Shown one piece after another: positions 15,747-29,947 of a stretch of DNA of 37,488 nt. Every line of letters starts with the position of its first letter. Within the stretch, counting starts at the first letter, position 1. This DNA is from an uncultured Lachnospiraceae bacterium (lineage in GTDB: Bacteria; Bacillota; Clostridia; Lachnospirales; Lachnospiraceae), in the NCBI GenBank assembly GCA_946631295.1, contig CAMOZY010000020.1, forward strand, positions 1 through 37,488. The letters are read 5' to 3'. The position numbers and the translations under genes are program-made. The notes below the pieces were generated by a model. The model did no database searches. It worked only from the letters and a program-made list of their open reading frames with translations, and was not told the origin of the DNA.

Positions 15747-16832
15747 TTACGACATTTGTTTTACTGTTCCGTTTTCAACATAAAACACTCTGTTCATGAC
15801 AAATCTGTCATTAACAAAGTCATCTATTCCGGTACATGTTATGAATGTCTGGATATCCCCTATACTGTCTAAAAGAAAACCCTGTCTTTTTCTGTCAAGT
15901 TCTGACAACACATCATCAAGGAGCAGGATTGGATTATCTCCCGACAATTTTTTCATCATATCGATCTCGGATAATTTCAGGGAAAGAGCTGCAGTTCTCT
16001 GCTGCCCCTGTGATCCGAATTTTCGTATATCTATATCTCCGGTCATGAATGCGAAATCATCCCTGTGAGGACCTATCGCAGTTGCCTTCGATTTCATATC
16101 TCTGGATCTTGAAGCCTTCAGACTTTCTTCAAAATCTTCTTCCTTTACGCTCGGTTCGTAGATAATGCTTATTTCTTCACGTCCGCCGGATAATTTTGAA
16201 TGAACATCCTTTATCTGTTCTTCAAGTTCATCGGCAAACTTTTTTCTTCTCTCAATTATCTTGGTTCCGTATGATATGAGCTGATCATCCCAGACACTTA
16301 ATGATTCCTCAAGTCCACGGTCAAAATGCATATCCTTCAGAACCTGATTTCTTCTGTTAAGGATCTTGTTGTAATTATTCAGGTTATAGAGATAGAACTG
16401 ATCCAGCTGGCACAGCTCCATATCTATAAATCTTCTTCTGTACGAAGGTCCGTTTTTTACAATGTTAAGATCTTCCGGAGAAAAGAATACAACTTTACAC
16501 AGTCCCATTAGTTCGGCAGCTTTTTTTATTCTGTTACCATCTATTGCTATGCCTTTTGTCTTGGAACTTCTGAGATGCATGTCAACTCTTGTGGGTATAC
16601 CGTCATTTTCAACCACGGTTCTCACATGAGCTTCTTCATGTCCGAATCTTATTATCTCCGAATCACGGCTCCCTTTATGTGACTTGGTAGTTGCCGCAAT
16701 ATATACAGCTTCGAGGATATTTGTCTTACCCTGTGCATTATCCCCGTAGAATATATTTGTTCCTCTGTCAAATTCTATGTTCAGATGATCATAATTACGA
16801 TAATCCGTAAGTTCGAGGGATCTTATTATCAC
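15747..16832 (-). CDS. recF: DNA replication and repair protein RecF
   Basis: The 361-residue SMC-like ATPase has Walker A GDNAQGKT (30-37), a signature region SQGQQRTAALSLKLSE and Walker B ILLLDDVLSELD. RecF acts with RecO and RecR to load RecA at gapped DNA. The start is a GTG at 16832 placed one base after the S4 gene's stop, with AAAGGAAG as ribosome site. The length is typical and the position between the S4 gene and gyrB is the classic Firmicute order. Confidence 0.96.
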   Translation of the reverse strand: MIIRSLELTDYRNYDHLNIEFDRGTNIFYGDNAQGKTNILEAVYIAATTKSHKGSRDSEIIRFGHEEAHVRTVVENDGIPTRVDMHLRSSKTKGIAIDGNRIKKAAELMGLCKVVFFSPEDLNIVKNGPSYRRRFIDMELCQLDQFYLYNLNNYNKILNRRNQVLKDMHFDRGLEESLSVWDDQLISYGTKIIERRKKFADELEEQIKDVHSKLSGGREEISIIYEPSVKEEDFEESLKASRSRDMKSKATAIGPHRDDFAFMTGDIDIRKFGSQGQQRTAALSLKLSEIDMMKKLSGDNPILLLDDVLSELDRKRQGFLLDSIGDIQTFITCTGIDDFVNDRFVMNRVFYVENGTVKQMS

Positions 16833-16833
16833 T

Positions 16834-17049
16834 TCATGCTTCCTTTTGCTTTATGATCAAACTGTTTCCCTTATACTCAATGACATCGCCGGCAACTATC
16901 TTTTTTCCACGCTGAATCTCGGTATTACCGTTAACCTTTACTTCTCCGTTAACGATATCGTATTTTGCCTCTACTCCGGATTCACAAAGACCGGCAGCCT
17001 TAAGTACCTGACCTAATTTTATAAAATCGTCCTTAATGTAAAATTCCAT
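16834..17049 (-). CDS. yaaA: S4-domain RNA-binding protein, YaaA/RlbA type
   Basis: This 71-residue protein is an S4 domain alone (IKLGQVLKAAGLCESGVEAK ... GEVKVNGNTE). It occupies the standard slot between dnaN and recF. Related proteins are described as RNA-binding and ribosome-associated; the role is not firmly settled. The dnaN stop (17054-17052) lies 2 bp before the ATG at 17049, and recF starts one base after this stop, so all three are translationally linked. A TTG two codons earlier is an alternative start. Confidence 0.9.
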   Translation of the reverse strand: MEFYIKDDFIKLGQVLKAAGLCESGVEAKYDIVNGEVKVNGNTEIQRGKKIVAGDVIEYKGNSLIIKQKEA

Positions 17050-17051
17050 GA

Positions 17052-18179
17052 TCAAACCGTTCCGCTTATTGTTACGGGAAGAACAACGTATACGTAGGAC
17101 ATGTCATCCTTCTTGATAAAGCAGGGTGCCTTTGAATTAACAAAATCGAGTTCTATTTCTTCGTCATCGATAACGTTGAGTGCATCAATCACAAATCTGG
17201 GATTGAAGCCTATTACCATATCCTTTCCGGACTTGGATGCGGGTACATTCTCATTCATGTTTCCGCTTGCTGAGGTTATCTTGATATTTATGCTGTCATC
17301 CTTTATATCAAGAACAATGGGTTTCTTATCACCCTCTCTGACATAAATAGTGGATCTGTCAAGACATTCGTTAAGTCTCTTCTTGTTGATCTTAACCTTT
17401 GTCTCATAATCTCCGACAAGCATCTTGTTAACATCAAAGAAATTACCCTCAATGATCCTTGATACTACCTTTGTTGTTCCGTATTCAAATCCAACATGAT
17501 TGGGATTGAAGATTATCTCGACATCATCATCTGCACCGCCGGTGATGATCTTTGCAAGTTCCTTCAGGCTCTTTCCGGGAATAATGACCTTTCTGTCAGG
17601 ATAATTTTCCCTGAGCTCCATGGTCACCATTGAAATACGGTGTCCGTCAAGACTGCACATTCTGACAGTATTATCATGAATCTCCATGAGTTCTCCCCTC
17701 ATGGTCTGCTGACCGGGAGTATCCTCACTAATATCAGCTATTGAGAAGCTTGTCTTTCTTATAAGCTCTCTGAGAGAAAGCTGGCTCATGATTATATTTT
17801 CGTTTTTATCAAGATCGGGAAGATAAGGGAATTCATCTGCTGCTCTTCCTGACATTGTATGCTTTACCTGTTCACAGCTTATAACGGTTGTAAACTTATC
17901 ATCACTTGAGATAGTAATATCCGAAGCTGAATCCGGCATTTTTCTTATAAGCTCTGAAAGGTGTTTTGCATCAAGAGCTATAACACCTGATTTTTCTATA
18001 TTACCTTCAATGACTGTTTCAATACCAAGATCAAGGTTATTAACCGTAAGAGCTATTCTTCCTCCGTTGGTATTGATCAGGATACATTCCATGATAGACA
18101 TTGTACTCTTAGAAGGGAGAGCTCTTATGACTGTCTGAATGCCTGAAAGAAGTGATGATTTTGAACAGGATATCTTCAT
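17052..18179 (-). CDS. dnaN: DNA polymerase III beta subunit (sliding clamp)
   Basis: The 375-residue protein has the three-domain clamp fold with typical segments SLLSGIQTVIRALPSKSTM at the N-terminus, GRAADEFPYLP in domain 1, MCSLDGHRISM in domain 2, and VIGFNPRFVIDAL and YVYVVLPV near the end. It forms the ring that holds the replicative polymerase on DNA. The ribosome site AAGGAG precedes the ATG. It is separated from dnaA by 221 bp that may hold its own promoter. Confidence 0.98.
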   Translation of the reverse strand: MKISCSKSSLLSGIQTVIRALPSKSTMSIMECILINTNGGRIALTVNNLDLGIETVIEGNIEKSGVIALDAKHLSELIRKMPDSASDITISSDDKFTTVISCEQVKHTMSGRAADEFPYLPDLDKNENIIMSQLSLRELIRKTSFSIADISEDTPGQQTMRGELMEIHDNTVRMCSLDGHRISMVTMELRENYPDRKVIIPGKSLKELAKIITGGADDDVEIIFNPNHVGFEYGTTKVVSRIIEGNFFDVNKMLVGDYETKVKINKKRLNECLDRSTIYVREGDKKPIVLDIKDDSINIKITSASGNMNENVPASKSGKDMVIGFNPRFVIDALNVIDDEEIELDFVNSKAPCFIKKDDMSYVYVVLPVTISGTV

Positions 18180-18400
18180 GGTGCATAACTCCTTTTTGAA
18201 TTCGTTTTGCGCGTGATGTTATATATAAAAATATATTTTTAGTCTTATTAGTAATAGGGGGTGTGACTAGTGTGCATAACCTTATATATTATACTATTTT
18301 CAAGGCAAAAATGGAATGAATAAGTATGTGAAATAGTATCGGTTATTAAATGATTTACCAGCCTTAAACCACATTTCTTATCTTATGTAAATCAGCCTTT
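18180..18400. other. dnaA-dnaN intergenic region with a DnaA-box-like site and a candidate dnaN -10
   Basis: These 221 AT-rich bases hold TGTGCATAA at 18271-18279, one mismatch from the DnaA box, and TATAAT on minus (18293-18288) as a possible dnaN -10 without a good -35. In Bacillus the unwinding region lies in the equivalent gap, so this could be a second part of a bipartite origin. I see no small gene in it. Confidence 0.45.
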
Positions 18401-19765
18401 TTATGATCCGGAAAGTATTTTTTTGATGCTTTCCACTTTTTCACGTGTATTTTTTCCACTTTTATTGGAATTAATATCAGCTTCTATCTTTTTACAGCCG
18501 CTTATTACGGTAGTATGGTCGCTTCTGTGAAGGTTATGAGCTATCTGCTGATATGTAATTCCAAGCATGTCATATGCAAGATACATGATTATATGCCTTG
18601 GATATACGATCTCAGCATTTCTTTTATTTGACATGATAGCTTCCTTGCTTGCATTGCACTCCTGGCATACAACGTCAACTATTCTGTCGAATGTGATGGT
18701 ATTTGAATCAAGGGGATAAATATAGTCCTTAAGAGCTTCCTTTGCATCATCAAGAGTTGGTTCTTTTATATTGAAGAGCTTGATATAACCCTGGATCTTC
18801 TTTAATGAACCTTCCAGCTCTCTGACGTTTGACTTCATATTAGAAGCTACATAGTCGATTATCTCTTCACTTATCTTAAGATTGATCTTCTCTGCAAAAT
18901 TCTTTAAAATAGCGGATCTTGTCTCATAATCGGGAGGTGTGATATCAACCACCATTCCCCATGCAAATCTTGAGATATATCTTTCATCGAGGGTTTTGAA
19001 TTCCTTGAAATTCTTATCTGATGAAATGATTATCTGCTTTCCTGCTGCATGAAGAGCATTAAATGTATTGAAGAATTCGTCCTGAGTTGCTTCTTTTCCT
19101 ATGATGGACTGGATATCATCTATCATAAGAACATCAACCGTGCGGTATTTTTCACGGAGCTTACTCATTGAAGCTACTGAATTACCGCTTCTGAGAGATT
19201 CAATAACGTCATTAGTGAAGTCATCACTTGTAACATAAATGACCTTTTTTGAAGGATCCTTCTTTAATATAAAGTGTCCTATTGAATGCATAAGGTGGGT
19301 TTTACCGAGACCGGATCCTCCGTATATGAAAAGAGGATTCCATGTTTTACCGGGATCTTCCGCAACTGCGACAGATACCTGGTGGGCCATCATATTATTC
19401 TTACCTACGACAAATGATTCGAAGGTATAGTCGGGATTAAGGGTATCATTGTCTATCCTTGTATCGGGTTCTACCTGAACAGGAGTCTGATCGGCATTAT
19501 TAAGAAGAAACTGGACTGTGATTATCTGTCCGAGTTCCTCTCCTATTACGGTTTCAAAATATAATTTGAACTTATTATTAAGGTAGCCGAGAGCTCTCTC
19601 GTCTTCCTTTTCGGTCCTTATATAGAATGTATTGCCGGATAATTCCTGAAATTCGAGATTTTCGAACCATAATTGATAAGTGATATCGGAAACGTTAGAT
19701 TCCCTCTGAATCTTTCTTTTGATTTCTTCCCAATATTCTTCGTTAGTGAATTTTTCAGCATTCAT
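18401..19765 (-). CDS. dnaA: chromosomal replication initiator DnaA
   Basis: DnaA binds DnaA boxes at oriC and melts the origin. The protein is 454 residues from the ATG at 19765. The frame is open upstream to 19984, but that part crosses the promoter and DnaA boxes, and the normal N-terminal helix (YWEEIKRKIQ) follows this ATG. Domain I is at about 8-85. The AAA+ domain has Walker A GGSGLGKT (149-156) and Walker B VLMIDDIQ. Domain IV carries the DnaA signature near RSDHTTVISGCKKIE. The nearest purine-rich ribosome site (AGGAGA) is unusually far, about 15 nt from the ATG, which may weaken translation. Confidence 0.97.
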   Translation of the reverse strand: MNAEKFTNEEYWEEIKRKIQRESNVSDITYQLWFENLEFQELSGNTFYIRTEKEDERALGYLNNKFKLYFETVIGEELGQIITVQFLLNNADQTPVQVEPDTRIDNDTLNPDYTFESFVVGKNNMMAHQVSVAVAEDPGKTWNPLFIYGGSGLGKTHLMHSIGHFILKKDPSKKVIYVTSDDFTNDVIESLRSGNSVASMSKLREKYRTVDVLMIDDIQSIIGKEATQDEFFNTFNALHAAGKQIIISSDKNFKEFKTLDERYISRFAWGMVVDITPPDYETRSAILKNFAEKINLKISEEIIDYVASNMKSNVRELEGSLKKIQGYIKLFNIKEPTLDDAKEALKDYIYPLDSNTITFDRIVDVVCQECNASKEAIMSNKRNAEIVYPRHIIMYLAYDMLGITYQQIAHNLHRSDHTTVISGCKKIEADINSNKSGKNTREKVESIKKILSGS

Positions 19766-19823
19766 AAGGCTTAAAGATGGTCTCCTGATAAATTTTTTTT
19801 GCTCTCTTTTCGATTGCCGTACT

Positions 19824-19852
19824 ATTTTATAATGTAAAAAAATATAATTCAA
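19824..19852 (-). promoter_or_regulatory. dnaA promoter
   Basis: On minus TTGAAT (19852-19847) and TAAAAT (19829-19824) lie exactly 17 nt apart, giving a leader of about 50 nt. DnaA-box-like sites lie just upstream, which fits autoregulation by DnaA. Confidence 0.6.
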
Positions 19853-19884
19853 ATCATGGTTACCCCCGTTTGTGCGTTTGCGGG

Positions 19885-20200
19885 TTTTCCACAAAAGTGG
19901 ATAATAGACATACCGGAGAGATATTAATGGAACAAGGTGAAACAGGACATGTCTTTGTGGAAAAAAAATAAAGAATCTAAACAAACAAAAATGCCTTATT
20001 TAAGGGCTTTTCCTCTATTTTACCCTCCTGCCTGTTAATAAATTGACATAAATATCCACATCTTTTACACCAAATGGGGATAAGATTTTGAGTGATATTT
20101 AAAGTGGATAACTCGGTGGAAAAGAAAAATTTTCAACATTTTTTTTCGGACTCCCGAAAAAGAAAAAATATAAAAAAATGAGTAAAATCAAATAATAAGC
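19885..20200. other. oriC: oriC: DnaA-box cluster and AT-rich region
   Basis: Six 9-mers match the DnaA box (TTATCCACA or TGTGGATAA) at 8 of 9 positions: 19885-19893, 19896-19904, 19956-19964, 20052-20060, 20075-20083 and 20103-20111. None is perfect. An AT-rich tract follows at about 20112-20200 with a hairpin TTTTTCGG/CCGAAAAA at 20142-20161, a candidate unwinding element. The cluster sits between divergent dnaA and rpmH, and most genes point away from it on both sides. A weak short hairpin (19993-20007) could limit transcription through the region. Confidence 0.85.
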
Positions 20201-20211
20201 GCTATTTTTGC

Positions 20212-20240
20212 TTGACACTCCTACTTATATTAATTACAAT
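20212..20240 (+). promoter_or_regulatory. rpmH promoter
   Basis: TTGACA (20212-20217) and TACAAT (20235-20240) are separated by 17 nt: a perfect -35 and a one-mismatch -10. The leader to rpmH would be about 85 nt. Confidence 0.85.
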
Positions 20241-20332
20241 CTGTTTTGTGTCGTTTCTGACAGATATCAGGTAGTGATATCAGGGTATGTTTACCTATTG
20301 CGAAGAGATTTATTAAAAGGAGGTGTTTCCTT

Positions 20333-20467
20333 ATGAAGATGACATTTCAGCCTAAGAAGAAGTCTCATGCCAAGGTTCACGGTTTCAGAGCAAGAATGTC
20401 TTCAGCCGGTGGACGTAAGGTTCTTCAGAGCAGAAGAGCAAAGGGCAGAAAGAAATTATCGGCTTAA
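20333..20467 (+). CDS. rpmH: 50S ribosomal protein L34
   Basis: This 44-residue, strongly basic protein starts [20 protein letters not shown] and ends [11 protein letters not shown], with the full length and motifs of bacterial L34. It has a strong ribosome site (AAAGGAGG). It is the first gene rightward from the origin, driven by the near-consensus promoter at 20212-20240 and followed 4 bp later by a hairpin before rnpA. Confidence 0.98.
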
Positions 20468-20471
20468 AAGT

Positions 20472-20502
20472 AAAGGTCACATTTGATGTGACCTTTGTTT
20501 TT
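20472..20502 (+). terminator. terminator-like hairpin between rpmH and rnpA
   Basis: An 11-bp perfect stem AAAGGTCACAT/ATGTGACCTTT with a TTG loop is followed by GTTTTT. It ends 13 nt before the rnpA ATG, so most rpmH transcripts may stop here and rnpA would depend on read-through. Confidence 0.85.
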
Positions 20503-20515
20503 CTGCGTATTTAAT

Positions 20516-20860
20516 ATGGAAAGATTAAGAAAGAACGCCCAGTTTTCGGATGTATACCGTGCACATCATTCCTTCGCAAACGGATTTATAGTCATGTATG
20601 TCAGAAATAACGGTGAATCCATAAACAGAGTAGGCGTAAGTGTTAGCAAAAAAGTCGGAAACAGTGTTGTAAGACACCGTGTTAAGAGACTTCTTAAGGA
20701 AGCTTTTCGCACGTCCGAGGATATGTTCAATAGTGGTTTGGACATAGTATTTGTTGCAAAGAAAAACGCTGCTGTAATGACATTTGATGATGCAAAAAAA
20801 TCTCTGATGGATCTGGCAGCTTCCCATCACATCCTTCAAAAAGAAGGCAAGTGCTCATAA
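20516..20860 (+). CDS. rnpA: ribonuclease P protein component
   Basis: The 114-residue basic protein assists the RNase P RNA in 5' maturation of tRNA. The RNR signature region reads SVVRHRVKRLLKEAFR, preceded by VGVSVSKKVGN. The ATG at 20516 is used because earlier in-frame codons lie in the terminator hairpin. No Shine-Dalgarno is visible before it. Gene order rpmH-rnpA-yidD-yidC-jag is standard. The RNase P RNA gene is not in this window. Confidence 0.95.
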   Translation: MERLRKNAQFSDVYRAHHSFANGFIVMYVRNNGESINRVGVSVSKKVGNSVVRHRVKRLLKEAFRTSEDMFNSGLDIVFVAKKNAAVMTFDDAKKSLMDLAASHHILQKEGKCS

Positions 20861-20869
20861 TATATATTT

Positions 20870-21109
20870 ATGAAGAGATTTTTTATTTGGTTGATCACTT
20901 TATATCAAAAGTATCTTTCTCCTCTAAAGAGGACGAAGTGTCCATATTATCCGACGTGTTCGGCGTACGGTAAAGAAGCCATAGAAAAGAATGGAGCCTT
21001 TATAGGGCTTATTCTTGCTGTGTGGAGAATCTTAAGATGTAATCCTTTTTCACACGGAGGTGTGGACCCTGTTCCTATGATGAGGAAGAGATATTCAGGG
21101 AGAATTTAA
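20870..21109 (+). CDS. yidD: membrane protein insertion efficiency factor YidD
   Basis: The 79-residue protein has the family core [22 protein letters not shown] and [16 protein letters not shown], with an amphipathic N-terminus. YidD proteins are peripheral inner-membrane factors that assist YidC-dependent insertion. The stop codon overlaps the yidC start (TAATG). No clear ribosome site precedes it. Confidence 0.95.
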
Positions 21110-22437
21110 TGTATTTTACTCTATTAACCCCTAATTCCACTCCCATTTTCAAGTATATCGTGTGGATACTTGGAAAGATCATGGAGGGAATATTCTATGT
21201 TCTTAATCAGATAGGTATCCCTAATATAGGTCTGTCCATCATATTTTTTACCATTATCGTAAATATATGCATGATTCCTCTGACCTACAAGCAGCAGAAG
21301 TTCTCCAAGCTTTCGATGAAAATGAATCCTGAGATCAAGGCCATCCAGAAAAAGTATGATGGCAAGAAGGATCAGGAATCCATGATGAAGATGAACGCCG
21401 AGACACAGGCAGTATATGCCAAGTACGGTACTTCACCTACCGGAAGCTGCGCATATCTTCTGATCCAGATGCCTATTCTCTTTGCTCTTTACAGAGTTAT
21501 CTATCAGATTCCCGCATATGTTACAAGGATCGGTAATACCTTCAGAGTACTTGCTGAGAAGATAGTTGCTACCGATAACGGAGCATTTATCACCGAGAAT
21601 CCCGACGGACTTTCAAGTGTTACATCTGCAATTCAGATGTATTCCAAAAATCTCGCAAAAGAAGGAAATATCGAGAACGGTATCATTGATGTTCTCAACA
21701 GGATTTCATCCGCTGATATGACTGCAATCAGCGACCATTACGGACTTTCCGGTGCTGTTTTTGAGGGAAGCCGTATTCTCAGTACTCTTGATGCAAACGG
21801 CAATATCATTGAAAAGGGACTGATCGATACCTACAATAATTTCCTGGGTCTGAATATCAGGAATACCCCCTGGTATATCATGAAGGAAAGCTTTGCCAAT
21901 CATGCATATCTTATCATGATCATGGCAATCCTCATTCCTCTTTTATCAGGTTTTACACAGTGGCTTTCGATCAAGCTCGCACCCAATCAGACTCAGCCTA
22001 CAGGTGACAATTCCCAGGCGGATTCAATGGCTCAGTCAATGAAGACCATGAACACCATGATGCCTCTCATGTCAATCTGGTTTTGTTTTACATTCCCCGC
22101 AGGTATGGGACTTTACTGGATTGCAAATGCTGTAGCACGTATCATTCTTCAGATCTTTATGAATAAGAGGATTGATAAGATCGATTTCAATGAGCTTATC
22201 GAGCAGAATAAGGAAAAGAGTGCAAAGAAGCTTGAAAAGGCTCAGGCAATGCAGGCTCAGATGCAGAATTATGCAAATGTGAAAACACGCAATATTCAGA
22301 GCAAGGCTTCATATGTAAATACCGATGCATCCGCAGACAGCGAAGCAGATACTGTAAAGCCCGCAGAATACGCACCGGGATCAATGGCTGCAAAGGCAAA
22401 TATGGTTGCCGAATTCAATAAGAGAAACAGTAAGTGA
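21109..22437 (+). CDS. yidC: membrane protein insertase YidC/Oxa1, large variant
   Basis: This 442-residue member of the YidC/Oxa1/Alb3 family inserts membrane proteins with or without SecYEG. Core segments are GLSIIFFTIIVNICMIPLTY (41-60), the cytoplasmic hairpin with KFSKLSMKMNPE, LLIQMPILFALYRVIYQIP, and two C-terminal segments ending MGLYWIANAVARIILQIF. Between about residues 140 and 255 is an extra loop of about 100 residues absent from Bacillus SpoIIIJ. The usual groove arginine (IVR in Bacillus-type proteins) is N52. No lipobox cysteine is seen at the N-terminus. A charged C-terminal tail is typical. Confidence 0.95.
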   Translation: MYFTLLTPNSTPIFKYIVWILGKIMEGIFYVLNQIGIPNIGLSIIFFTIIVNICMIPLTYKQQKFSKLSMKMNPEIKAIQKKYDGKKDQESMMKMNAETQAVYAKYGTSPTGSCAYLLIQMPILFALYRVIYQIPAYVTRIGNTFRVLAEKIVATDNGAFITENPDGLSSVTSAIQMYSKNLAKEGNIENGIIDVLNRISSADMTAISDHYGLSGAVFEGSRILSTLDANGNIIEKGLIDTYNNFLGLNIRNTPWYIMKESFANHAYLIMIMAILIPLLSGFTQWLSIKLAPNQTQPTGDNSQADSMAQSMKTMNTMMPLMSIWFCFTFPAGMGLYWIANAVARIILQIFMNKRIDKIDFNELIEQNKEKSAKKLEKAQAMQAQMQNYANVKTRNIQSKASYVNTDASADSEADTVKPAEYAPGSMAAKANMVAEFNKRNSK

Positions 22438-22447
22438 GGAATTAATA

Positions 22448-23281
22448 ATGGATTATAAAGAGTATACAGGTAAATCAGTTAATGATCTGATCACTGATGC
22501 ATGCCAGGATCTCGGAGTTACCAGTGACAGACTTGATTATGTTGTTGTTGATGAAGGATCTGCAGGATTCCTCGGACTCGGTGCCAAGAATGCCGTTATC
22601 AAGGCAAGGATCAAGAGTGAGGAAGAGGAAATAATCGAAGCAGCTCCCGCAGAAAAAGAAGAAGTTAAGGAAGAAGCAGCTGCAGAACCTGTAAAGGCTG
22701 AAAAAACTGAAAACCCTGAAACATCTGCTCCTGCCAGGAAAGAAGAGAAGATCGTTCCTGTTTCAGATCCTGCTAAATATGAAGCAGCAGCTACGAAATT
22801 CCTTGAGGATGTCTTCAAAGCAATGGATATGGAAGCTTCCATCAAGACTTCATTTGAACTTTCAGAGAATTCTCTTGATGTAGAGCTTGCCGGTGCTGAT
22901 ATGGGTATCCTTATCGGAAAAAGAGGAGCAACACTCGATTCTCTTCAGTATCTTGTAAGCCTTGTAGTAAACAAGGACAGCGAGCAGTATATCAGAGTCA
23001 AGGTTGATACCGAGGACTACAGAGAAAGAAGAAGAGCAACTCTTGAAAATCTTGCGAAGAATGTTTCCGCAAAGGTTAAGAGAACAGGACGCCCTTATGA
23101 GCTTGAAGCAATGAATCCTTATGAAAGAAGGATCATCCACTCAGCACTTCAGGATAACGATTATGTTTATACCTACAGTGAAGGAGAGGGAGTAAACAGA
23201 CATATTGTTGTTGCTCTCAAGGAAGGCGTAAGACCCACCGGAGATTACGGCCGTTCGGGACGCAGAGGAAGAAGATATTGA
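22448..23281 (+). CDS. jag: RNA-binding protein Jag/KhpB (Jag-N, KH, R3H)
   Basis: The protein has 277 residues from the ATG at 22448, which has GAGGA upstream; an earlier in-frame codon lies inside yidC. Jag-N covers about 1-52 (GSAGFLGLGAKNAVIKARI). An acidic Glu/Ala-rich linker covers about 57-100. The KH domain carries GKRG (157-160). The R3H domain has NPYERRIIHSAL (R228, H231). KhpB proteins bind RNA and affect cell division or envelope genes in Gram-positives. It ends the rpmH operon, before a terminator. Confidence 0.95.
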   Translation: MDYKEYTGKSVNDLITDACQDLGVTSDRLDYVVVDEGSAGFLGLGAKNAVIKARIKSEEEEIIEAAPAEKEEVKEEAAAEPVKAEKTENPETSAPARKEEKIVPVSDPAKYEAAATKFLEDVFKAMDMEASIKTSFELSENSLDVELAGADMGILIGKRGATLDSLQYLVSLVVNKDSEQYIRVKVDTEDYRERRRATLENLAKNVSAKVKRTGRPYELEAMNPYERRIIHSALQDNDYVYTYSEGEGVNRHIVVALKEGVRPTGDYGRSGRRGRRY

Positions 23282-23297
23282 TCTGATAACCGTTACA

Positions 23298-23328
23298 GGG
23301 CCATGGCTGTTGCTGTGGCCCGTTTTTT
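23298..23328 (+). terminator. intrinsic terminator after jag
   Basis: Stem GGGCCA/TGGCCC with a 12-nt loop is followed by GTTTTTT, 17 bp past the jag stop. It separates the rpmH-jag operon from mnmE. Confidence 0.85.
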
Positions 23329-23355
23329 AGACATAATATATTGTAAAGTATTATC

Positions 23356-24795
23356 ATGAGTGATCTTTCATCGACAACAATTGCAGCAATATCGACAGCA
23401 ATGTCGGAATCAGGAATTGGAATAATAAGAGTCAGCGGACCTGATTCTGTTTCCATATGTTCTGAGATACTCTGTGATACTAAGGGAAATGCTGTACTTG
23501 ATAAGATGGAAGCTGGTAATTTCAGGTATTGCTTTGTTAAGGATGAAGAAGAGATAATTGACGAATGCATAGCTCTTCTTTACAGGGCTCCACACTCATA
23601 TACAGGAGAAGATACCGTTGAACTGCAGTGTCATGGCGGTATTTTTCTGCTTAAGAAGGTTCTTGATCTTGTCATTTCAAAAGGCGCAGTAATTGCTGCA
23701 CCCGGAGAATTCACGAAAAGAGCCTTCTTAAACGGAAAAATGGATCTTGCACAGGCAGAAGGTGTAATGGATGTAATATCATCCAGATCCGAATCTGCTC
23801 TCAGGGCATCAAGAGACCAGATGTCAGGCAGGGTTTCTTCAGTTATAAAGGGACTGAGAGCAAAGATCCTGTATGAAACGGCATATATAGAATCCGCAAT
23901 AGATGATCCTGAGCATTATGATCTTGACGGATATGACGTACATGTCACGGAAGTTGTTAAAGGATTAAAGTCAGATATAGACAGGCTTATAGATTCCTAT
24001 AACAGCGGAAGATTTGTAAGAGAGGGCATAAATACCTGTATTGCAGGGCGTCCAAACTCCGGAAAGTCATCACTGCTTAATCTTTTAACAGGACAGGACA
24101 GAGCAATTGTTTCGGATATTCCCGGTACAACAAGAGATACGATTGAGGAATATGTGAGATTTGATGATATTCTTCTTAAGCTCACAGATACTGCAGGAAT
24201 AAGAAATACGGACGATCCCATAGAGAGCATAGGAACGAAAAAAGCCCTGGATGCCGCATCAGGAGCGGATTTGGTGCTTTTTATGATAGATGCGTCAGAG
24301 TATCTTGAAACTGACGATATGGAAATCTTTTCATCGGTTTATGAAAAGAAAACAATAATCCTTCTAAATAAGGCGGATAAAACCTTAAAGATAAGACCTC
24401 ACGATATATATGAGCATTTCAGATACAGCGCAGATGAAGAGCTGAAAAATATGACACAGGAAGAGTTCCTGGAAAAATATCCATGCGTGATAATCTCCGC
24501 ATCCGGAGGGCAGGGACTTGATGATCTTAAACGTGTTATCAAAAAGCTTTTCTACAGCGGCGTGGTTCAGTCATCATCAGATGTTGTGATAACAGGACTT
24601 CGTCATAAGGAACTGCTTGTTAAAGCGGATGAGTCACTTTCAAATGTTATCGAATGCATTGAAAGCGGCATGGAAACTGATATTTATACAGTGGATCTGA
24701 TGGATGCTTACAGAAGTCTTGGACTGATAATAGGTGAAGAAGTAGGAGATGATCTTGCAGATGAGATATTCTCCAAATTCTGTATGGGTAAATAA
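23356..24795 (+). CDS. mnmE: tRNA modification GTPase MnmE
   Basis: The 479-residue protein has an N-terminal tetrahydrofolate-binding domain, a helical domain and an inserted GTPase: G1 GRPNSGKS (231-238), G2 GTTRDT, G3 DTAG (278-281), G4 NKAD. It ends with the conserved FCMGK whose cysteine is typical. With MnmG it adds the carboxymethylaminomethyl group to wobble U34 of tRNAs. It starts 28 bp after the terminator with no Shine-Dalgarno; -10-like TAATAT and TATTAT lie within 20 nt of the ATG, so its leader is very short or absent. Confidence 0.96.
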   Translation: MSDLSSTTIAAISTAMSESGIGIIRVSGPDSVSICSEILCDTKGNAVLDKMEAGNFRYCFVKDEEEIIDECIALLYRAPHSYTGEDTVELQCHGGIFLLKKVLDLVISKGAVIAAPGEFTKRAFLNGKMDLAQAEGVMDVISSRSESALRASRDQMSGRVSSVIKGLRAKILYETAYIESAIDDPEHYDLDGYDVHVTEVVKGLKSDIDRLIDSYNSGRFVREGINTCIAGRPNSGKSSLLNLLTGQDRAIVSDIPGTTRDTIEEYVRFDDILLKLTDTAGIRNTDDPIESIGTKKALDAASGADLVLFMIDASEYLETDDMEIFSSVYEKKTIILLNKADKTLKIRPHDIYEHFRYSADEELKNMTQEEFLEKYPCVIISASGGQGLDDLKRVIKKLFYSGVVQSSSDVVITGLRHKELLVKADESLSNVIECIESGMETDIYTVDLMDAYRSLGLIIGEEVGDDLADEIFSKFCMGK

Positions 24796-26759: not shown

Positions 26760-27476
26760 ATGAATGACTATTCAGGATTAATTAAATATCTGGAAGGCTA
26801 CGGAGTATCTGTTTCTGATGATCAGATCAGGCAGCTTGATACATATTATGAAATGATGATTGAGACTAACAAGTCTCTTAATCTTACTGCGATAACAGAA
26901 TTCTCAGACGTACTGGTAAAGCATTATATAGATTCTGTTTCTATCGTAAGGGATATGGATATGTCTCAGGAATTATCTGTTATTGATGTAGGAACGGGTG
27001 CGGGATTTCCCGGAATGGTTCTTAAGATAATATTCCCATCCCTTAATATCACTCTTTTTGATTCTCTTCAGAAAAGACTGAAATTCCTTGATGAAGTGAT
27101 CCGTACTCTTGATCTTAAGAATATAAATACCTGTCATGGAAGAGCAGAGGAAGCAGGACATCTTCCGGGTATGAGAGAACAGTATGATCTATGCGTTTCA
27201 AGAGCGGTAGCAAATCTTCAGGTCTTAAGTGAACTTTGTCTTCCCTTTGTAAAGGTAGGGGGAAAGTTCGTTTCATATAAATCAGATAAGGGCAGCGAAG
27301 AATTAGCTTCATCAAAACATGCCCTTGAAGTTCTTGGAGGTTCTCTGGTTAAGGAGGATATCTTCACTCTTGAAGATAATGAGATGGTGAGAAATCTGAT
27401 CATTATTGAAAAGAAGAAGGAATGTCCGAAGACTTATCCGAGAAAACCGGGTACTCCTTCTAAAAAACCATTGTGA
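26760..27476 (+). CDS. rsmG: 16S rRNA (guanine527-N7)-methyltransferase RsmG
   Basis: The 238-residue SAM-dependent methyltransferase (GidB) has motif I VIDVGTGAGFPG (75-86), the N-terminal helix with NKSLNLTAI (37-45), and DLCVSRAVA followed by FVSYKSDKG. It methylates G527 of 16S rRNA; loss gives low-level streptomycin resistance in several bacteria. It lies 35 bp after mnmG and ends the mnmE-mnmG-rsmG group, next to the parS-rich region. Length is typical. Confidence 0.96.
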   Translation: MNDYSGLIKYLEGYGVSVSDDQIRQLDTYYEMMIETNKSLNLTAITEFSDVLVKHYIDSVSIVRDMDMSQELSVIDVGTGAGFPGMVLKIIFPSLNITLFDSLQKRLKFLDEVIRTLDLKNINTCHGRAEEAGHLPGMREQYDLCVSRAVANLQVLSELCLPFVKVGGKFVSYKSDKGSEELASSKHALEVLGGSLVKEDIFTLEDNEMVRNLIIIEKKKECPKTYPRKPGTPSKKPL

Positions 27477-27545
27477 TTGTATGAATCCAAAGTACTATAT
27501 ATTGGTTTAATTATGGTCTTAGAAACAGGCGATACTAAATATAAA

Positions 27546-27561
27546 TGTTTCACGTGAAACA
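27546..27561. promoter_or_regulatory. parS: parS site 1 (perfect)
   Basis: TGTTTCACGTGAAACA matches the ParB/Spo0J centromere consensus at every base and is a perfect palindrome. It lies 70 bp after rsmG and 2.4 kb before parB. Confidence 0.95.
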
Positions 27562-27583: not shown

Positions 27584-27599
27584 TGTTTCACGTGAAACA
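27584..27599. promoter_or_regulatory. parS: parS site 2 (perfect)
   Basis: A second perfect 16-bp parS starts 38 bp after the first one starts, close to 3.6 helical turns, so adjacent ParB clamps would sit on different faces. Confidence 0.95.
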
Positions 27600-27637: not shown

Positions 27638-27691
27638 TTTTTGTAACCACAATATATTGTTCAGTGATATGAAATCATTAGAAAGAAGATA

Positions 27692-27923
27692 CACTGTCGG
27701 GAATCATATATGATTTCATGCTCCTTATCGTCGGTTCAGGTATTTCTAATGAATACAACATCAGTTATTCCTGTCACCGGGACCGGAAATAAGGAGACAT
27801 CCATGTCTCCTCATTTCCTCATTTCGCCATCCGGGCGAAATGTCCCTGCATGTATATGTATTCATAAGAAATACTCCTGAACCGACTAAAAGTCGCAGGA
27901 AACATATATGATTCCGACAGGTG
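27692..27923. repeat. 232-bp structured inverted-repeat element (MITE-like or structured RNA)
   Basis: Arms 27692-27762 and 27849-27923 pair in perfect blocks: TGTCGG, AATCATATATG, TTTC, GTCGGTTCAGG, TATTTCT and ATGAATACA, broken only by short bulges and one mispaired patch. The head is closed by GGGAC/GTCCC (27779-27783 with 27842-27846) and holds two side-by-side hairpins. The first is at 27785-27818 (ATGTCTCC arms, extended by GGAAAT/ATTTCC). The second is at 27821-27841 (ATTTCGCC/GGCGAAAT). An alternative 10-bp pairing (27669-27678 with 27710-27719) competes with the long stem. No ORF over 60 codons and no clear target-site duplication are seen. A transposed miniature element or a structured RNA are both possible. 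Confidence 0.8.
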
Positions 27924-27960
27924 AATTACGAATTATCGATTATGGTTTGATCTACAGAAG

Positions 27961-27989
27961 TTGTTGCTGATTGTCAGGAATTATATATT
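27961..27989 (+). promoter_or_regulatory. promoter of the zinc-ribbon gene
   Basis: TTGTTG (27961-27966) and TATATT (27984-27989) lie exactly 17 nt apart. The 27986-28001 parS-like site overlaps the -10 and the expected start point. Confidence 0.55.
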
Positions 27990-28012: not shown

Positions 28013-28726
28013 ATGAGCGAATATAAGGTAATGTTCTGTCATGAATGTGGAGCAAAACTTATCGACGGAGCAAGATTCTGTCAGAATTGTGGAACTCCTT
28101 TATACGGAAGTGATAAAAAGGATGAAAAGAAGAGTTTCGTATCAGATTACAATCTTCTGAAAGGATTCGCCGGTCTTGGAGTTAATTCTCAGAATTACAT
28201 TCCTCCTGCAACAGGTGGAATGATGTGTCCTTTACCAACCGCTGAAGAAAAAGATGCGGATAAGAAGCTGATCGATGACAATGATAAGAAATCTGATAAT
28301 AAACCTTCAGTGCAAAGTGAAAAGTTAAAGCTTCTTGTAGATTGCTGTACGAAGGTATTATCAACTGTTTCCGGTGACGGACATAATGAAACAGTATTGT
28401 ATCTGAATGAAAAAACAGGAGAGTATCAGATACATACCTACAGTCAGGAAGTGGGAGTATTAACTGAAATTCATCATGCATACGTGACAGATGAGAAGAC
28501 CATCGAAGAGGTGATGAAGAAGATTGAAGAAACCGGATTAGAAAATTATGAAAATAAATCCGGTGATCCTCTTTTCGGTGGAGAATATGTCTGCAAATTT
28601 ATGCGCGGAGATAAGGCAGTGAGAATTACAACATCCAGTCTTCCCTATGAAAAGCATGGGGATCTTCATATGATCCATTCATTCCTAAACAGTTTTATCA
28701 ATAAAGAAAATGAGATATCTGTATAA
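28013..28726 (+). CDS. zinc-ribbon protein of unknown function
   Basis: This 237-residue protein begins with a zinc ribbon: C9-x2-C12 and C23-x2-C26 (CHECGAKLIDGARFCQNCG). A polar, Lys/Asp-rich linker (about 33-100) follows, then a globular alpha/beta region (about 100-237; ETVLYLNEKTGEYQIHTYSQ) that I do not recognise. It has no membrane segment. A strong ribosome site (GGGAGGAG) precedes it. It is followed 14 bp later by a second orphan gene, and the pair lies between parS-like sites upstream of parA. Function cannot be assigned. Confidence 0.85.
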   Translation: MSEYKVMFCHECGAKLIDGARFCQNCGTPLYGSDKKDEKKSFVSDYNLLKGFAGLGVNSQNYIPPATGGMMCPLPTAEEKDADKKLIDDNDKKSDNKPSVQSEKLKLLVDCCTKVLSTVSGDGHNETVLYLNEKTGEYQIHTYSQEVGVLTEIHHAYVTDEKTIEEVMKKIEETGLENYENKSGDPLFGGEYVCKFMRGDKAVRITTSSLPYEKHGDLHMIHSFLNSFINKENEISV

Positions 28727-28740
28727 ATACGGAGGATCTT

Positions 28741-29094
28741 ATGTTTGAAACCTACAAAAGAAATCTGAGATTCTACGAATATCTTGAGAAGAACGGTCAT
28801 GTCCAGGATACCGAATCTTTACCTGAACTTAAGGTGAACGTACAGATTGGTGATATGGATATGGAACTGGAATATAAGGAGTGCGAACCTTATATCATTA
28901 ATTCCTGGGATATAACATTTGCAATCTTTTTTGATGAGTATGGAAGAAGATTTCTGCTTCTGGACAGGAATGGCAGTTCAAACGGACCGGAAGTGATACC
29001 CTTTGAAAGTGGTATCGCCGGAATAGAAAACGTAACCTATAAAAAGAAGGTTGGAAGGCTGGTCATCAGTATAGTGCCGGAGAGTACTAACTGA
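28741..29094 (+). CDS. small protein of unknown function
   Basis: This acidic 117-residue protein has no membrane segment or motif I recognise. It appears to alternate strands (LKVNVQIGDMDMELEYKE; ITFAIFFDEYGRRFLLLDRN). It is preceded by GGAGG and starts 14 bp after the zinc-ribbon gene, so the two are an operon. Its stop codon (TGA) overlaps the first base of a parS-like site. It may act with its neighbour, but this is inference from position alone. Confidence 0.8.
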   Translation: MFETYKRNLRFYEYLEKNGHVQDTESLPELKVNVQIGDMDMELEYKECEPYIINSWDITFAIFFDEYGRRFLLLDRNGSSNGPEVIPFESGIAGIENVTYKKKVGRLVISIVPESTN

Positions 29095-29176: not shown

Positions 29177-29947
29177 ATGGATAAGATTTTTGCTATTGCA
29201 AATCAGAAGGGCGGAGTAGGAAAAACCTGCACCACCGTTAACCTTGCTGCATGTCTTGGAGAATTGGGAAAGAAAGTCCTGGTAGTGGACATGGATCCCC
29301 AGGGGAATTCTTCCAGCAGCTTTGGCGTTAACAAGAACGAAGTAGAAAATACCATCTATGAGGTTATGCTCGAAGAGTGCACACTGGGAGAAGCTATAGT
29401 TAAGGATGTTGCAGCTAATGTTTCTCTTGTTCCGGCCAATGTCAATCTTGGCGCTGTTGAGATAGAGATGGCAGGTCAGGACAAGGCAAATCTCATACTC
29501 AGAAGAGAACTTGATTTTGTTAAGGAGGATTATGATTATATCCTGATCGACTGTCCTCCCGCTATCAGTCTCATGACCGTCAACTCAATGGCAGCTGCTA
29601 CAGGTGTTATTGTTCCTGTTCAGTGTGAGTACCTTGCACTTGAAGGGCTCGGCCAGGTAATAGAAACCATCAATCTTGTCAGAAGCAGAATGAATCCGAA
29701 TCTTGATCTTTCGGGAATTCTTTTCACCATGTTTGATTCAAGGACCGTTCTTTCCAACGATGTTGTAGACAGCGTAAGGAATACGGTCAAGTACCATACC
29801 TTTGAAACCAAGATTCCCAGGAATGTCAGATTATCTGAAGCTCCCTCTTATGAAGTACCCATCACGGTATACGATCCTAAGTGTGCCGGATGTGAGGCTT
29901 ACAGGAATCTGGCAAAAGAAGTAGAAGAATTATTCAGGGATAAATAA
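29177..29947 (+). CDS. parA: chromosome partitioning ATPase ParA/Soj
   Basis: The 256-residue protein is a deviant Walker ATPase: KGGVGKT (11-17), followed by VLVVDMDPQGNSSSS and IDCPPAISLMT. It binds DNA nonspecifically as an ATP dimer and, driven by ParB at parS, moves origins and in Bacillus also modulates DnaA. No N-terminal DNA-binding helix-turn-helix is present, as in chromosomal ParA. It lies 38 bp before parB in one operon, with an ATAACATATGTTAT palindrome between them. Confidence 0.96.
   Translation: MDKIFAIANQKGGVGKTCTTVNLAACLGELGKKVLVVDMDPQGNSSSSFGVNKNEVENTIYEVMLEECTLGEAIVKDVAANVSLVPANVNLGAVEIEMAGQDKANLILRRELDFVKEDYDYILIDCPPAISLMTVNSMAAATGVIVPVQCEYLALEGLGQVIETINLVRSRMNPNLDLSGILFTMFDSRTVLSNDVVDSVRNTVKYHTFETKIPRNVRLSEAPSYEVPITVYDPKCAGCEAYRNLAKEVEELFRDK

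Follow-up and report, generated by a model that had tools for sequence, protein, structure and literature searches.

CsrA-sponge RNAs are established in Gammaproteobacteria. In Clostridia, the closest described RNA is TwoAYGGAY (Rfam RF01731), which the available passages of Weinberg et al. 2010 (PMC2864571) rate as a probable RNA that is not cis-regulatory, and which carries the type label 'Cis-reg' in Rfam. RF01731 belongs to Rfam clan CL00106, to which cmscan also assigns the csrB RNA of E. coli K-12. Gardner and Eldai, 2014 (PMC4333381), in the sections available, found that both TwoAYGGAY hairpins match a CsrA-binding motif and proposed CsrA sequestration by this RNA as a hypothesis awaiting validation. 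The same sections predict CsrA binding for Bacillaceae-1 RNA (RF01690) too, which has other hosts and is a separate family. In excerpts of the papers on Rfam 15 and CaCoFold, TwoAYGGAY is among the families gaining covarying pairs; PMC11661157 and PMC7682815 also name it, and literature on the RNA family or CsrA, in excerpt, includes PMC11701678, PMC7657543 and PMC4383904. According to passages of PMC7652899, the SELEX consensus of CsrA is RUACARGGAUGU, the ligands have mostly short stems, and very stable structure is thought unfavourable. Our literature search, which covered mostly papers readable without subscription, found no experimental test of the TwoAYGGAY-CsrA prediction, and no report of a csrA association, of dispersed copies or of MITE-like units for this RNA.

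The locus described here shares with CsrB, CsrC and RsmXYZ the GGA motifs in hairpin loops, a csrA gene in the genome and the absence of a single fixed neighbouring gene, and its clan is that of CsrB. In contrast to CsrB, which binds about 18 CsrA subunits according to passages of PMC7652899, TwoAYGGAY has two sites on one long hairpin. It further differs from these sponge RNAs in its many dispersed copies and in that its CsrA binding is predicted.

The window hairpin and its site

The window is the whole stretch of DNA that was analysed, 37,488 nucleotides of one contig from an uncultured Lachnospiraceae bacterium. An earlier note on this DNA had described a 232-bp structured element in the centromere region. 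The features around it are as follows.

26760..27476, plus strand: rsmG (GidB), PF02527, convergent with the RNA
27546..27561, no strand: parS site (context), exact consensus match
27584..27599, no strand: parS site (context), exact consensus match
27694..27920, minus strand: whole TwoAYGGAY hairpin, outer arms CTGTCGG.../...CCGACAG, inverted-repeat pairs, minus-strand fold
27726..27890, minus strand: match to Rfam RF01731 (TwoAYGGAY), model positions 1-168 of 168
27785..27818, minus strand: GGA hairpin 2, loop AUGGAU in ACAUGGAUGU, GGA at 27802-27800
27820..27842, minus strand: GGA hairpin 1 (5'-proximal in the RNA), loop CCGGAU, GGA at 27832-27830
28013..28726, plus strand: zinc-ribbon protein gene, PF13240, its start facing the 5' side of the RNA
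29177..29947, plus strand: parA/soj, PF13614

The sites at 27546..27561 and 27584..27599 are taken as parS by their exact match to the consensus.

On its minus strand the element encodes a TwoAYGGAY RNA, and it is an ordinary member of a known family. It scored 99.1 bits against RF01731 (E 1.5e-16), above the gathering score of 43, and the earlier statement that no element of this shape had been described was wrong. Like the described family, it shows a full-length model match, two GGA hairpins and a clostridial host; the difference is that its hairpin arms extend about 30 bp beyond each end of the Rfam model. Self-comparison of the window showed that 27694-27920 matches itself in inverted orientation. 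The arms, the two inner hairpins and the complementarity of 27669-27678 to 27710-27719 were found at the places claimed, and the structure of the 232-bp element stood, but its extent and strand did not: the whole hairpin spans 27694-27920 and the meaningful strand, given by RF01731, is minus. Folding of the element gave -116.6 kcal/mol on the plus strand (z -12.4) and -120.4 kcal/mol on the minus strand (z -12.3), with none of 200 shuffles folding as low on either strand, and the lowest-energy stretch of the window (643 stretches of 232 nt, step 58) lay on the element. Two mutually exclusive folds had also been suggested. These are unlikely, since imposing the 27669-27678/27710-27719 helix on the minus-strand fold gave -99.1 against -120.4 kcal/mol, a cost of about 21 kcal/mol. 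A promoter and terminator scan at the window copy gave no signal above chance, with one promoter-like site, on the plus strand (2.8 expected), and no terminator-like site.

Two GGA-bearing hairpin loops, AUGGAU and CCGGAU, which are a feature of the family, were present on the minus strand of the window, with the two GGAs 27 nt apart. Hairpin 2 agreed with the SELEX consensus at 10 of 12 positions and hairpin 1 at 6 of 12. The first position of the hairpin 1 loop is C, where most copies have A, and this C replaces an A that is invariant in the SELEX ligands according to passages of PMC7652899. Exactly two GGA hairpins were seen in the folds of 102 of 141 distinct copies, with a GGA spacing of 24-28 nt in 101 of these 102. 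Among 87 copies, 66 had at least two GGA hairpin loops on the RNA strand and 2 had them on the other strand. Because the search model itself contains GGA loops, it partly presupposes both their conservation and their strand bias.

RNAalifold predicted 33 pairs on 36 copies, and 31 of the 33 showed, in one or more sequences, changes on both sides with the pair kept. The earlier proposal of a structured non-coding RNA is thus supported by the RF01731 match and by strong compensatory change; further copies and homologues with compensatory changes, the search for which had been set beforehand as a refutation test, were both found. When the fold of the window copy was applied to six copies from its genus, 75.6% of cells paired compared with 64.5% after shuffling, and the covariation score was 0.399 compared with 0.177 (sd 0.018) for shuffled and at most 0.149 for slid versions, the fold having been taken from one of the six copies, which favours it. 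Helices 2, 4, 5 and 8 paired in only 40-47% of cells, and therefore the window fold is not conserved in every detail. Across 90 pairs compared between the window copy and the same-site copy of Lachnospiraceae bacterium AC2028, 36 were the same, 4 were changed on one side and 17 on both sides, 27 were broken and 6 fell at gaps. The 60-nt flanks of the core, compared in 82 copies, show that the arms run beyond the Rfam model. Their complementarity had a median score of 31 within the same copy and of 7 with the flanks of other copies; the 95th percentile of swapped flanks (16) was exceeded by 80 of the 82 copies and the 99th percentile (35) by 30. The upper end of the swapped distribution is consistent with arms that are common to copies within one genome.

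The own genome carries two TwoAYGGAY copies. In AC2028, a divergent pair of copies lies at the same place as the window copy, and this was the only one of 14 readable relatives with a match over the cut-off in the rsmG-parA gap; the gaps of the other 13 (73-84% RsmG identity) held none over the cut-off, and one further relative (L107) was excluded from this count because its contig ends too early. Two exact parS sites were kept in all 15 relatives. The arms of the window copy do form inverted repeats, but its ends are not shared with the other copies of the genus, and no exact direct repeat of at least 6 bp was found between 27650-27705 and 27908-27965. Because it has neither a target duplication nor common ends, its arrival by transposition, and with it the mobilisation of its ancestor, is something that we infer. 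It is probably an old resident without visible duplication, its congener AC2028 having copies at the same site.

Some further observations concern the surroundings. Boxes CCAC(T/A)ATATAT(A/T)G and ACTATATATTG flank the parS trio (window 27494-27504 and 27647-27659); the spacing of the trio is 38 bp, and the flanking boxes recur in most of the relatives read (L100-L114). The parS-parA gap (window 28013-29094; L100-L114) holds small genes that vary by relative, the zinc-ribbon gene and other short ORFs. The stretch 15747-24795 is an ordinary replication-origin region, with recF-like, dnaN and dnaA genes on one side and rnpA, yidC, jag and mnmE on the other.

Dispersed copies and MITE-like units in related genera

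TwoAYGGAY was found dispersed through genomes in 1 to 53 copies. Among 32 scored carriers, picked with weight on those with the longest match lists in the first search, the number ranged from 1 to 50 and was at least 10 in 21; in G290, where nearly all candidates were scored, there were at least 53. Such numbers, and the MITE-like units described below, are absent from the available passages of PMC2864571. By simple ORF calls, the genes on the two sides of 87 copies were oriented opposite/opposite in 18, same/opposite in 24, opposite/same in 22 and same/same in 14, with 9 one-sided. Close pairs of copies (gaps of at most 400 bp) were divergent in 12 of 13 cases among the matches listed (p 6e-7 versus 1/4), and the thirteenth was tandem and below the cut-off. 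The divergent pairs are at G281:C64 and C198, G006:C47 and C33, G032:C123, G132:C92, G078:C1, G107:C7, G280:C1, and G290:C2, C60 and C30. We gave them no weight as a sign of shared promoters, since an insertion preference would explain them equally.

Comparison of unit ends and flanks supports the view that TwoAYGGAY is carried in MITE-like units in four genera (G161, G290, G113 and G037). A target-site duplication was called when a direct repeat adjoining the unit ends scored at least 6, and flanks swapped between copies served as the control. Pooled over the four genera, duplications were found in 27 of 56 units versus 34 of 898 swapped flanks; half of the units showed none. By genus, the counts were 5/10 versus 5/90 in G161, 13/23 versus 12/506 in G290, 7/17 versus 16/272 in G113, and only 2/6 versus 1/30 in G037. 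The copies fetched are part of the 53, 32 and 47 of G290, G113 and G037. Left out were 7 of 30 copies in G290 (5 too close to the end of a contig, 2 lacking recognisable ends), and 3 of 20 in G113 and 3 of 9 in G037 without recognisable ends; at least two G290 units (L069, L070) had wrongly placed boundaries and counted as negative. The unit ends read CA(C/G)GGAAATC in G290, and were of three kinds in G113 and two in G037.

The units are sharply bounded in G161. Among 10 of its 23 copies compared, the ten best pairs were 90-96% identical, and column identity was about 0.9 inside and about 0.3 beyond the terminal repeat at both ends. The end sequence GATTCGGGTGTCAAAAGG occurred 90 times in this genome (at most 3 mismatches) versus 3 times for the reversed pattern, and these hits gave 35 nearest pairs within 400 bp. 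The ends were 310-314 bp apart in 18 of the 35 pairs, 15 of which were tied to RF01731 matches (12 by the listed match places, 3 by direct check for RF01731); the other 17 were 73-203 bp apart, and none of the five checked had an RF01731 match. No sign of an autonomous partner was seen, either as a nearest-partner end pair more than 314 bp apart (up to 6 kb examined) or in the ORFs near three unpaired ends, read by eye. Spread by plasmids or phages was considered and rejected, as the 314-bp unit of one G161 copy had no match in plasmid or phage records (E 0.01).

The units of G161, G290, G113 and G037 thus resemble bacterial MITEs in being short, with terminal inverted repeats and direct duplications of 6-10 bp. 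They differ in that the interior is a conserved structured RNA and that no autonomous partner was seen in G161, and the window copy differs in lacking shared ends or a duplication. The earlier idea of a miniature transposable element is supported for the family in these four genera, by terminal repeats and duplications, but not for the window copy, where no exact direct repeat of at least 6 bp was found. Carriage in MITE-like units would account for the many dispersed copies, for outer arms that differ between copies and for the absence of a constant neighbouring gene. In group 1 of G290 the core was better conserved than the arms, which suggests selection on the RNA and not on the ends alone; core and arms were conserved about equally in G161 and G113. 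Inverted arms were present in G132, G078 and G032, and longer homologous stretches lie 5' of some copies in G113 and G280.

Two observations on the sequence around the units may be added. In G113 (L218, L222, L224, L229, L231) and G280, several hundred conserved bases on the 5' side of the RNA contain no clear ORF. Target sites in G161 and G113 (L253, L256, L257, L259, L261, L216, L217) look palindromic, with CTATAG-like cores that are preceded by T-rich and followed by A-rich sequence.

Co-occurrence with csrA

The own genome encodes one csrA (87.2 bits), which adjoins fliW and whose product aligns to solved CsrA proteins. We sampled 299 genomes of the family, mostly one per genus, of which 50 carry TwoAYGGAY, 48 of them over the cut-off. 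In tests that ignore kinship (the tree) among genomes, csrA was present in 48 of the 50 carriers versus 104 of 249 non-carriers (p 5e-14), the latter count including two weak matches in G002 and G031, and, outside the family, in 25 of 28 carriers versus 90 of 346 non-carriers (p 3e-11). The second sample was class-wide, 392 genomes minus 18 of the own family as counted from listings; for its carriers over the cut-off only, csrA was present in 17 of 19. A csrA match was absent in five carriers (G155 and G294 in the family; G476, G494 and G582 in the class), and G155 and G294 have a single TwoAYGGAY copy each. Taken together, the distribution suggests that TwoAYGGAY follows CsrA, which would be new evidence for the family.

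Within the family sample, csrA was found in 152 and fliW in 149 of the 299 genomes. Because the two genes nearly always occur together, motility is a possible true correlate. G132 has csrA (E 1e-14), no FliW match and 50 TwoAYGGAY copies, which makes it a good genome for separating the csrA reading from the motility reading.

A proposed role and its rivals

On balance, we consider it rather probable that TwoAYGGAY RNA titrates CsrA and that it spreads as a MITE. We infer transcription, CsrA binding and titration as follows. The minus-strand transcript would fold into a long hairpin with two GGA-loop hairpins, spaced by about 26 nt, at its head, and the two loops would most likely bind both RNA-binding faces of one CsrA dimer. 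The RNA would then act as a sponge that draws CsrA off its mRNA targets and lowers free CsrA, alongside the protein antagonist FliW, which the own genome encodes. In related genera, this RNA would form the interior of MITE-like units whose outer hairpin arms end in terminal inverted repeats.

Two alternatives look to the local setting of the hairpin. We give hardly any credence to a centromere DNA element, namely a cruciform by which the spreading of ParB from one parS site to another would be limited: in 13 of the 14 readable relatives the parS pair is present and the element is not, its other copies are dispersed through genomes and the GGA loops lie on one strand, although the window copy does sit between parS sites 1-3 and the site at 27986, and in AC2028 two copies occupy the same place. 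The barrier to ParB that the earlier note had proposed is thus not supported. The hairpin might also act in cis on a gene beside it, as a leader, attenuator or 3' UTR element. This would agree with the Rfam type Cis-reg, but is very improbable given the mixed gene orientations around the 87 copies, the opposite strand of both window neighbours and the rating as not cis-regulatory in the passages of Weinberg et al. (PMC2864571).

The other two alternatives bear on the family as a whole. TwoAYGGAY might be a MITE family only. The hairpin would then help the element to transpose or simply result from its long inverted repeats, there would be no regulatory RNA, and the paired changes in the arms would come from template switching in quasi-palindromes. 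The terminal repeats, duplications, high copy number and near-perfect arms in G290 would all follow from this, as would the shorter units with the same ends, which lacked the RNA in five of five checked. We nevertheless consider it unlikely, as the interior core is better kept than the arms in G290, GGA loops at fixed spacing recur in copies with different ends, and the csrA association appears in two samples. It is also conceivable, if distinctly improbable, that the RNA is tied to flagellar motility or another lineage trait and that its partner is not CsrA. The near inseparability of csrA and fliW in the sample would allow this, and the long stable stems are unlike most SELEX ligands, with hairpin 1 lacking the usual A (PMC7652899, in passages). 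On the other side, hairpin 2 fits the SELEX consensus at 10 of 12 positions, two loops at fixed spacing suit a dimer, and G132 combines csrA and 50 copies with no FliW match.

Returning to the CsrA-titrating RNA, the sponge idea is open to direct testing, given its association with csrA and the strand-specific GGA loops that come in pairs. It is the family, more than the window copy, that is of interest. What appears to be new, as judged from genome comparison, is the evidence for carriage in MITEs in several genera, for many copies per genome and for a tie to csrA. We propose tentatively, and with some reserve, that a CsrA-titrating RNA is MITE cargo in many Clostridia and that its copy number (1 to 53) sets the buffering of CsrA. 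If this is true, RF01731 would partly be a mobile-element family, for which the label Cis-reg is unfitting. Each transposition would add two CsrA-binding loops, and copy number would be either a means of dosage that the host tunes, or the means by which an element bends host physiology toward its own spread. A mobile repeat would then titrate a global regulator with a dose that shifts with each transposition, and transposition would be linked in an unusual way to post-transcriptional control in Lachnospiraceae that carry csrA and fliW.
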